Below, in pieces: positions 1 through 2,835 of a stretch of 64,000 nucleotides of DNA (position 1 is its first letter; every line of letters begins with the position of its first letter). Made by a program: the position numbers and the translations under genes. The notes below the pieces were generated by a model. It searched no databases, was not told the DNA's origin, and saw only the letters and a list, made by a program, of their open reading frames with translations. The DNA comes from Sphingopyxis sp. GTDB taxonomy: Bacteria > Pseudomonadota > Alphaproteobacteria > Sphingomonadales > Sphingomonadaceae. The DNA lies in contig JAGHZY010000012.1 of assembly GCA_017745175.1 (NCBI GenBank), positions 30,642 through 94,641 of the forward strand, written 5' to 3'.

Positions 1-1421
1 CTGCGCGGGGTGCCGTCGATGGTGAGCTTGCCGGCGAAGATGCGGTCGGTGCCGCTGTGCGTCTCATGCCAGTCGACGAGCTGGAAGCGCTTGGCTTCGG
101 TCGCCAGATACTGGCGCTCGAACGCGTGCCAGATATCCTCGGCGCCGAGTTCGCGGCTCGTCTGGTCGGCCAGCGCCTGGACGACATGGCTGAAACTCGC
201 CTGCATCTTCTTGGGCAATTTCAGGCCCTTGTCCTGTTCGAGCACCCATGCGACGCCGCCCTTGCCCGACTGGCTGTTGACGCGGATCACCGCTTCATAG
301 CTGCGGCCCAAATCGGCGGGGTCGATGGGGAGGTAGGGGACTTCCCACTTCTCGTCATTCTGGCGTTCGCGCGCGGCGAAGCCTTTCTTGATCGCGTCCT
401 GATGGCTGCCCGAGAAAGCGGTGTAGACAAGCTCGCCGCCATAGGGGTGGCGCGGGTGGACGGGCAGGTTGTTGCAATATTCGACCGTCTGGATGACCTC
501 GTCGATGTTCGAGAAGTCGAGGCAAGGGTCGACGCCCTGCGTGTACATGTTGAGCGCGATCGTGACGAGGCAGGTGTTGCCGGTCCGCTCGCCATTGCCG
601 AACAGGCAGCCCTCGACGCGGTCGGCGCCCGCGAGCAGACCGAGTTCGGCCGCCGCGACGCCGGTGCCGCGGTCGTTGTGGGTGTGCAAGGATATGATCG
701 CGCGGTCGCGGTTCGGCAGATTCTTGCAGAAATATTCGATCTGGTCGGCGTAGATGTTCGCCGTCGCCGCCTCGACCGTCGCGGGGAGGTTGAGAATGAT
801 CGGCTTGTCCGCCGTCGGTTGCAATATGTCCATCACCGCCTCGCAGCAGGCGATGCTGAAATCGAGTTCGGCGGTCGAGAAGGTTTCGGGGCTGTATTCG
901 AAGCGCCAGTCGGTGCCGGGCAGGCGCGCGGCATTGTCGCGGAGCTGCTTCGCGCCCTCGATCGCGATCGCCTTGATGTCGTCCATGTCCATGCCGAAGA
1001 CGATCTTGCGCCACGCGGGGCTGACCGCGTTATAGACGTGGACGATCGCGGTCTTTGCGCCTTCGAGGCTGTCGAAGCTGGTGCGGATCAGGTCGGCGCG
1101 GCTCTGCGTCAGCACCTGCGGCGTCACATCGTCGGGGATGCGGCCGTTCTTGACCAGCCCCGAGATGAAGTCGAATTCGGTCGCGCCCGCGCTGGGGAAG
1201 CCGACCTCGATCTCCTTGAACCCGCAGCGGACGAGCAGGTCGAAGAAGCGCGCCTTTTTCTCGGCATCCATCGGGTCGATCAGCGACTGGTTGCCGTCGC
1301 GCATGTCGGTGGAGAGCCAGATCGGCGCCTGGGTAGTGACGCGGCCGGGCCATTCGCGGTTCGCGAGCGGAACCTGCGGGAAGGCGCTATACTTGACCGA
1401 GGGGTCGCGGAGCATGGTCAT
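1..1421 (-). CDS. leuA: 2-isopropylmalate synthase, partial (C-terminus beyond window start)
   Basis: Reverse-strand translation from ATG at 1421: [78 protein letters not shown]..., typical alpha-IPM synthase. Open to window edge, so missing from the ORF track. Confidence 0.95.
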
Positions 1422-1506
1422 GGGTTTGGAACTTCTTCTGCTGTCGGTTGCGGTGCTTGTCGATCGGACCCTTGAGCGGGTGGCCGCGACTAGCGCGCAG
1501 CCAGTG

Positions 1507-1557
1507 TCACGCCCAAGGGCGTGTAAGTCGCAGAAGAAGAAGGGCGTTGCCGCGCAT
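1507..1557 (-). CDS. leuL: Putative leucine leader peptide [16 protein letters not shown], upstream of leuA
   Basis: Reverse-strand ATG CGC GGC AAC GCC CTT CTT CTT CTG CGA CTT ACA CGC CCT TGG GCG TGA; 5 Leu codons in 6 consecutive codons, ~85 nt before the leuA start. Confidence 0.75.
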
Positions 1558-1564
1558 GGGCAGG

Positions 1565-1593
1565 CTATTGGTTCAAAATGTCGTCGAATGCAA
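1565..1593 (-). promoter_or_regulatory. Candidate leuL-leuA promoter (TTGCAT-N17-CAATAG), possibly giving a near-leaderless leader peptide
   Basis: Weak -35/-10 matches with 17-nt spacing; the -10 ends about 7 nt before the leader ATG. Confidence 0.3.
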
Positions 1594-1643: not shown

Positions 1644-2204
1644 TCAGCGGATGAATTCGGCCTTACTGCAGTCGGAGAAATAGACCTTGCATCCGTTCAG
1701 ATTCTGGTCGGTGCATTGTTTCATCGCGACCTTCGTCGCCTTTTTGATCGTGTAATGCTTGTAATAGAAGGGGTTGTATTTTCCGTTCGGCGCCTGACCC
1801 GCGACGAGAACGGCGCATTGATTATACCAGGTCATCGCCATTTGGCAGCCGGCCCCGCCCCTGGAGGTGCAGCGGGCGATCGCGTCGGCCACGGCATCTT
1901 CCTCGCTGGGGCGGGTGCTGGAGAGGCCGATCGTGCCGTCCTCGCTGGCGGCGAAGGCGCCCCAGCGCGTCTCCCAATGCCCCTGCGGGACTTGCGGTGC
2001 CGGCTGACCGCCGCCGGGCTCGCGGTACTGATACAGCCCCGGGATCGGCTGGCACCGGATGCCCTCGGGCGAGGGCTGGGGGACATAGCCGTCGGAGCAG
2101 CCCTGTTCGGCGCGCGCCTTTTCAACCGGGCTGCCGGCGAGGAACAGCGTGGCCGCGACGGCGAACAGGGCAAGGACACAAAGCCACGGATAACGACGCC
2201 GCAT
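1644..2204 (-). CDS. DUF4189 domain-containing exported protein
   Basis: 186 aa, N-terminal signal; WGAFAASEDGTIGLSSTRPSEEDAVADAIARCTSRGGAGCQMAMTWYNQCAVLVAG is DUF4189-like. Confidence 0.8.
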   Translation of the reverse strand: MRRRYPWLCVLALFAVAATLFLAGSPVEKARAEQGCSDGYVPQPSPEGIRCQPIPGLYQYREPGGGQPAPQVPQGHWETRWGAFAASEDGTIGLSSTRPSEEDAVADAIARCTSRGGAGCQMAMTWYNQCAVLVAGQAPNGKYNPFYYKHYTIKKATKVAMKQCTDQNLNGCKVYFSDCSKAEFIR

Positions 2205-2337: not shown

Positions 2338-2835
2338 CTAGCCCGTCACCCACTCGACCTTCGGATCGTTGAAATCGACGACGTCGGCGAGTTCGCGGAC
2401 GTTCGGATAGCCATAGCCGACGAGGTTGATGAAGGTCTGGATATTAAGCGCGAGCGGCGCCGACTTGAGCGGCACGGGGTTTTTGTGGTTCGAGAAATTA
2501 TTGTTGCAATAGATGAGGATGGGGCGGCCGGGATCGGCGCCCACCACCGCGGCGAGGCTTTCGGCGGTGAAGTCGGTGAGCGGCAGATTGACCGCACCCT
2601 TGATGTGGCCGCGCTGGAAAGCGTCCTTCGAACGCGCGTCGAGGAGTAGCGCGCCGGGTTTCGCGGCCTCGGCCATGAAGGCGCCGAAGCCGATGAGGCG
2701 CGTCGCGCGCTCGGGTGCGACCGAAGCGGTGAGCGCCTGGAAGGCCGGATAGTCGATCTGCGGATTGGCCTGTGCCAGCGCGGGCGTGGCGGCGCCGACG
2801 AGGATGGGGGCGAGAGCGAGAAGCAGCGGGCGCAT
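2338..2835 (-). CDS. Rhodanese-like domain protein, exported
   Basis: Signal peptide; LLLDARSKDAFQRGHIKGAVNLPLTDF...PILIYCNNNFSNHK rhodanese pattern. Confidence 0.85.
   Translation of the reverse strand: MRPLLLALAPILVGAATPALAQANPQIDYPAFQALTASVAPERATRLIGFGAFMAEAAKPGALLLDARSKDAFQRGHIKGAVNLPLTDFTAESLAAVVGADPGRPILIYCNNNFSNHKNPVPLKSAPLALNIQTFINLVGYGYPNVRELADVVDFNDPKVEWVTG

Follow-up and report, generated by a model that had tools for sequence, protein, structure and literature searches.

A candidate Leu-codon-dependent translational attenuator upstream of leuA in Sphingopyxis and other Alphaproteobacteria

A short reading frame rich in leucine codons lies upstream of leuA in the genome of Sphingopyxis sp., and this raises the question of whether the leader controls leuA and, if so, whether control acts on translation or, as in classic attenuation, on transcription. 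A preliminary description, made from the letters of the DNA, favored translational control through pairing of the Leu codons with the leuA ribosome-binding region. We have followed up this proposal in the window (the whole stretch of 64,000 nucleotides that was analysed) and in related genomes.

Leader ORF and leuA in the window

The following features are required at the outset:

3..1421, minus strand: leuA, 2-isopropylmalate synthase of the leuA_yeast/PRK03739 subfamily, with its ATG at 1421 and its 3' end beyond the window
1507..1557, minus strand: leader ORF of 16 codons, proposed name leuL; a similar leader is present in 137/138 Sphingomonadaceae leuA upstream regions
1565..1570, minus strand: -10-like hexamer CAATAG, spaced 17 nt from the -35-like hexamer and 7 nt from the leader ATG
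1588..1593, minus strand: -35-like hexamer TTGCAT, from direct reading and the preference in the family alignment

A 16-codon leucine leader had been described before leuA on the minus strand, and the ORF is found at 1557-1507, inside the range noted for it (1422-1560), where it reads ATG CGC GGC AAC GCC CTT CTT CTT CTG CGA CTT ACA CGC CCT TGG GCG TGA. The identity of leuA is given by the profile scores of the window protein, which are 770 bits for NF002991 and 698 bits for TIGR00970. A gene for a DUF4189 protein (1644-2204, minus strand) adjoins the leader on its upstream side, and a Rhodanese-domain protein with a signal peptide-like N terminus is encoded at 2338-2835 (minus strand).

The placement of TTGCAT and CAATAG, 17 nt apart, predicts a transcript start at or near the leader ATG. 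The TTGCAT hexamer fails a strict sigma-70 scan; Sphingomonadaceae leaders aligned on the ATG prefer TTG or TGG followed by AC or CC at -36 to -31 and A/T at -12 and -11, and no Shine-Dalgarno sequence stands out before the ATG in these aligned leaders. Judged from the hexamers and the family alignment, the leader ORF is likely leaderless. A transcription start downstream of 1507 had been named as an observation that would speak against leader control, and the predicted start lies upstream of that position.

Conservation of the leader and its pairings

The proposed long-range pairing, termed P1, consists of two strands:

1530..1539, minus strand: P1 5' strand CUUCUUCUGC, formed by Leu codons 7-9 plus the first letter of CGA; from unique complementarity, the minimum-energy stem, and coevolution
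1432..1441, minus strand: P1 3' strand GCAGAAGAAG, the leuA ribosome-binding region; from the same three lines and constrained folding

The complementarity between leader and ribosome-binding site (RBS) in the window is real and above chance. The decamer CTTCTTCTGC has two sites only in the 64-kb window, one in the leader (minus strand, 1539-1530) and one at its complement (plus strand, 1432-1441), with 0.08 occurrences expected by shuffling and two sites in 0/100 shuffles. The P1 3' site ends 10 nt 5' of the leuA ATG (1421), and the minimum-energy RNA fold, which is stabler than shuffles (z = -3.7), includes exactly the 10-bp P1 stem. The perfect 10-nt complement between the Leu run and the leuA RBS, about 10 nt from the AUG, was the central observation of the preliminary description, and the two-site decamer, the shuffles, and the minimum-energy stem all agree with it.

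Relatives were sampled as the leuA upstream regions of 138 Sphingomonadaceae loci, with a dereplicated set of 98. Of the 138 loci, 137 have a leader ORF of 12-21 codons, which ends in LRL[TI]RP-stop, LRL[TI]RPWA-stop, or near variants, and changes of the leader stop codon between UAG and UGA leave the frame intact. Leu accounts for 29% of leader codons vs 7.6% of LeuA codons in the dereplicated set. Conservation of the ORF and its Leu codons in relatives, a check that had been proposed at the start, is thus found in nearly the whole family sample. The spacer between the leader stop and leuA measures 67-145 nt in the family. Reinitiation at leuA by ribosomes that leave the leader was weighed and rejected, since this gap exceeds the 10-13 nt at which reinitiation is reported to peak in Proteobacteria (PMC4833913).

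Because the P1 sequence turns over between genera, MAFFT columns are unusable for it, and each leader was therefore tested against the leuA upstream region of its own locus and, by permutation, against those of other species. In Sphingomonadaceae, the longest leader:RBS helix averages 6.52 bp for own vs 5.50 bp for permuted pairs (0/10000 permutations), helices of at least 7 bp occur in 52% of own vs 17.5% of cross-species pairs, and duplex energies agree with the helix-length result. About half of the species in this set have no P1 helix of at least 7 bp. With the leuA coding start or the loop within P2 (see below) as control targets, own and foreign leaders pair without clear difference, near the null. 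The partner sequences themselves vary: the Leu run is used in Sphingopyxis-like genomes, and CGUAACGAAA:UUUCGUUACG, CUAUCGCU:AGCGAUAG, and CGCAACGGA:UCCGUUGCG in the family loci L131, L134, and L083, respectively. Overall, in P1 the pairing is conserved and the sequence is not, and sequence-based RNA searches tend to overlook such structures.

Further conserved features lie between the two P1 strands:

1524..1530, minus strand: near-invariant CGACUUA (codons CGA CUU A), with the predicted stall codon; from conservation in the family
1508..1523, minus strand: local hairpin CACGCC-CUUG-GGCGUG of 6 bp in the minimum-energy fold, which holds most of the leader stop codon
1511..1520, minus strand: P2 5' strand GCCCUUGGGC, which covaries with the 3' strand and overlaps the local hairpin
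1468..1477, minus strand: P2 3' strand GCUCAAGGGU, from covariation; at class level P2 is CCCCUGA:UCAGGGG

The heptamer CGACUUA is exact in 128/138 family loci, and 136/138 have CGACU[U/A]. Its two adjacent leader codons are CGA in 98/98 and CUU in 92/98 loci of the dereplicated set, whereas the same codons are rare in family LeuA (CGA, 1.9% of Arg; CUU, 3.2% of Leu). No conserved downstream complement of CGACUUA was found beyond the level of shuffles. This near-invariance raises a sharp question about stalling at codon pairs. The sole family locus without the Arg CGA (L133, Sphingomonadaceae) ends in LSLLLLTCP-stop and keeps CUUA and P2.

P2 pairs the stop-codon segment CCCUURGG with CCYAAGGG about 35 nt downstream. 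It is paired in 93.8% of cells, with double changes at 5 pairs and 0/500 shuffles as high, and pairing in slid registers is far worse. The most striking P2 pair, with A/G covariation of 44/38, amounts to no more than about 2 changes when placed on the LeuA tree, and the case for P2 is therefore built from several pairs together with the class-level test given below. The local hairpin also varies in a compensated way, in that pair 24-38 is AU, GC, GU, CG, or UA among relatives. Because P2 overlaps the local hairpin, the two would be alternatives, or would form a pseudoknot if the hairpin retains its lower stem only. The leader and P1 of the preliminary description stand, whereas CGACUUA, P2 with the local hairpin, and the class-wide range had been overlooked.

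Proposed mechanism and rival explanations

We consider it probable that the leuA 5' leader is a Leu-codon-dependent translational attenuator; the leucine response, the stalling, the direction of the response, and translation (vs transcript level) as the main output are what we infer from the comparisons and folding. In this mechanism, transcription would begin at the leader AUG or close to it. With Leu-tRNA in good supply, ribosomes would reach the leader stop codon in the hairpin/P2 segment, and the Leu-codon stretch, being free, would pair through P1 with the ribosome-binding region of leuA, which would keep leuA translation low. When charged Leu-tRNA is scarce, ribosomes would stall on the Leu codons, chiefly on the invariant CUU of CGA-CUU-A, and a stalled ribosome would cover the P1 5' strand, exposing the RBS for translation of leuA. 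The segment around the stop codon may fold either as P2 or as the local hairpin that overlaps it, and these alternatives may contribute to the resting state.

Constrained folding, with ribosome footprints masked, gave the energy needed to open the leuA RBS. In the window this cost is 11.4 kcal/mol with no ribosome, 2.9 kcal/mol with one stalled at the conserved Leu codon, and 10.9 kcal/mol with one at the stop codon. Across 96 species, the cost at the stop minus that of the Leu-stalled state is +1.4 to +2.3 kcal/mol, vs +0.2 to +0.7 kcal/mol in chimeras of a leader and a foreign RBS, with the order reversed in 16-21/96 species. These modelled values are consistent with translational attenuation, in which a starved ribosome would open leuA and a terminating one would let P1 close. 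Complementarity of leader codons to the RBS of the gene that follows, a characteristic of translational attenuators, is likewise present.

Transcription attenuation, in which leader translation decides intrinsic or Rho-dependent termination before leuA, is an unlikely alternative given the terminator searches, even though enterobacterial Leu/Ilv leader peptides act in this way, P2 is a strong GC-rich helix, and about 70-145 nt separate the leader stop from leuA. The terminator hairpin and U-tract that lie between leader and gene in a classical attenuator are missing: the window has no terminator-like site on the leuA strand, and after P2 a T-run of at least 4 within 18 nt occurs in only 6/98 relatives, as does a T-run of at least 5 anywhere in the spacer (6/98). 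Nor would intrinsic termination account for the fact that it is the leuA RBS, and not a terminator stem, that is conserved as the pairing partner. A change in transcript level through Rho or polarity, on the other hand, would give the same sequence signature. The earlier remark that no U-tract terminator is visible between leader and leuA thus holds in the window and, as the lack of consistent U-tracts indicates, in relatives, and the earlier preference for translational control over classic attenuation gains support from leader:RBS coevolution, constrained folding, and this missing terminator.

The leader peptide itself could be the sensor, as in TnaC, whose nascent peptide holds the ribosome at the stop codon when tryptophan is present. 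Here, the C terminus RL[TISR][RCGS]P-stop would arrest the ribosome at the stop on free leucine, with the Leu codons being secondary, and the near-invariant R, L, and Pro just before the stop (or WA-stop) are in keeping with this. However, the two residues before Pro vary class-wide (T/I/R/S/N, then R/C/G/S) while single nucleotides are fixed, although in the class set the search pattern itself accounts in part for these fixed nucleotides; CGA and CUU are conserved at the codon level, which a peptide sensor would not require; and a stall at the stop would free most of P1, that is, turn leuA off. We regard peptide sensing as very unlikely. A regulator site formed by CGACUUA and P2, in a protein- or ligand-binding RNA of the type proposed for the actinobacterial LEU element, would make the ORF incidental. 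Such a site would account for an unpaired 7-mer that is conserved beyond coding need and whose conserved complement was not found, but 137 loci retain the leader's start codon, stop codon, and reading frame, the frame is preserved through the UAG/UGA stop changes, and Leu codons are enriched fourfold, which leaves this explanation scarcely probable.

Known systems and distribution across Alphaproteobacteria

The proposed translational attenuator shares features with several known systems. Classical enterobacterial leu/ilv attenuators (leuL) combine a Leu-codon leader as sensor with an intrinsic terminator and U-tract; the leader sensor before leuA is shared, whereas the U-tract terminator is missing here. 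In ermC-type translational attenuators, an antibiotic-dependent peptide stall exposes the RBS of the gene downstream, and the proposed logic of a stall that frees an RBS is the same, whereas the signal in ermC is the antibiotic-dependent stall and not an amino acid. The Corynebacterium ilvB-II uORF motif is a sensor rich in branched-chain codons that acts by transcription attenuation (PMC10272879); it likewise places a uORF sensor before a biosynthetic gene and differs in this transcriptional mode, in the gene, and in the RNA. The leader peptide leuL1 of Streptomyces lividans (MRFGLLLLSCRGEGL) precedes leuA on a leaderless transcript with no typical terminator (PMC8079986). It shares its position and the lack of a typical terminator with the Sphingopyxis leader, for which leaderless transcription is also predicted, and differs in the peptide tail and RNA core.

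The closest likeness is to the LEU element before actinobacterial leuA, in which the leader's run of Leu codons is described as forming a base stem with the Shine-Dalgarno sequence of leuA, the inner helices can fold as a pseudoknot or as an alternative hairpin, and there is no terminator (Seliverstov et al., 2005; PMC1262725). Codon mutations in the Streptomyces coelicolor leuA leader, as cited in that paper, had some effect at odds with classical attenuation, which is a point against the present mechanism. Both elements have a leader ORF with a Leu run before leuA, a base stem of Leu run and Shine-Dalgarno sequence, and no intrinsic terminator. Inside the base stem, the LEU element has a pseudoknot and an alternative hairpin, and Sphingomonadaceae have two mutually exclusive helices, each covarying, that may or may not coexist as a pseudoknot. 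An actinobacterial Microbacterium locus (L070) has the same fold topology, with GCUUCUUCUU:GAGAAGAAGC around a CCGCGACGAG:CUCGUCGCGG stem. However, the LEU element has actinobacterial hosts, and the alphaproteobacterial core of CGACUUA and CGCCCUUNGG/CCCCUGA is absent from the actinobacterial sequences compared. R1, a covariance model of the element core, does not match the actinobacterial loci L066 and L068-L071. Because R1 has no match and CGACUUA is absent there, the present element is classed as a variant that would act like the LEU element and not as a member of it. Two loci of one alphaproteobacterial genus (L169, L172) carry the core CUUCUUAGC[UC]GCCCCUAG, near the actinobacterial CUUCUUAGCUGCCGCG, and may be a bridge between the element types.

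Since the pairing of Leu codons with the leuA Shine-Dalgarno sequence was proposed in 2005 for actinobacterial LEU elements (PMC1262725), the pairing mode itself is not new; as put forward in the preliminary description it is supported by the sequence tests, and as a new idea it was anticipated. Rfam 15 has no family above the gathering threshold in the window (only a chance DnaX match, E 1.3) and no match in 14 relatives. We found no account of the alphaproteobacterial leuA element in the literature searched, which did not extend to subscription papers on proteobacterial attenuation, so that an earlier notice is possible.

R1 has a single match in the window's own genome, before leuA. It is found in 170/201 Sphingomonadaceae genomes (82/96 genera), including some in which the LeuA type of the window has no match, and across Alphaproteobacteria in 37/296 sampled genomes (30/229 genera). 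A pattern scan with one genome per species returned at least 120 stretches, in which CGACUUA is fixed by construction of the search; titles among the matches listed include Gluconobacter, Gluconacetobacter, Komagataeibacter, Thalassospira, Caulobacter, Rhizobium, and many Rhodospirillales. Phylum-wide matches are confined to Alphaproteobacteria among the matches listed, a weak indication given that the genomes listed are mostly alphaproteobacterial. Among the listed matches of R1 and the pattern scan, the LeuA start motif lies downstream in 137/146 class loci, and several of the remaining 9 run into a contig end or do not contain the exact anchor.

In these listed class loci, P1 is supported at 0/10000 permutations, with at least 7 Watson-Crick bp in 28% of own vs 9% of permuted pairs, and P2 pairing runs past the core (0/10000). 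Retention of the pairing across relatives, the second check proposed at the outset, is thus seen in both family and class, where own pairs exceed permuted ones despite sequence change. Three class LeuA proteins that were tested score as leuA_bact/PRK00915 and far under the leuA_yeast cut-off, and the window's protein does the reverse; the same leader therefore precedes two distant LeuA subfamilies.

Several loci were noted individually. In Rhizobium sp. AB2/73 (L061), a Leu-poor leader ending in VALRLSRGRRA-stop keeps CGACUUA about 70-110 nt before leuA, and UCCGUUGCA is complementary to UGCAACGGA before leuA; L061 and a second Rhizobiaceae locus (L062) have leaders that look related by eye. 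Plasmids of Sinorhizobium sp. K101 (L067) and Rhizobium leguminosarum (L072) have a Leu-rich leader, ending in LLLLGLIRGCRVR-stop in L067, and a long CGGUUGCCGGG:CCCGGCGGCCG stem after it, unusually far (about 230-265 nt) before the aligned LeuA start. On a Cupriavidus metallidurans megaplasmid (L063), a leader-like ORF ending in SSLLLSLPIGCRA-stop lies about 140 nt before leuA, and its CUUCCUCGC matches the complement of GCGAGGAAG, at the Shine-Dalgarno sequence of leuA, in every position; by eye, this is a betaproteobacterial version.

It is possible, and we suggest it tentatively, that the alphaproteobacterial loci represent a hitherto unlisted, class-wide RNA element in which leucine would be sensed by the invariant slow pair CGA-CUU and not by a long Leu run, leuA translation would be set by a freely re-evolving leader:RBS pairing, and the element would have been kept while the leuA_yeast and leuA_bact types were exchanged behind it. 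Such an element would provide one testable rule for leuA regulation over many genera of Alphaproteobacteria, in which leucine control is far less studied than in enterobacteria. In addition, the alphaproteobacterial element makes the unsettled mechanism of the LEU element, described in 2005, testable in a second phylum.
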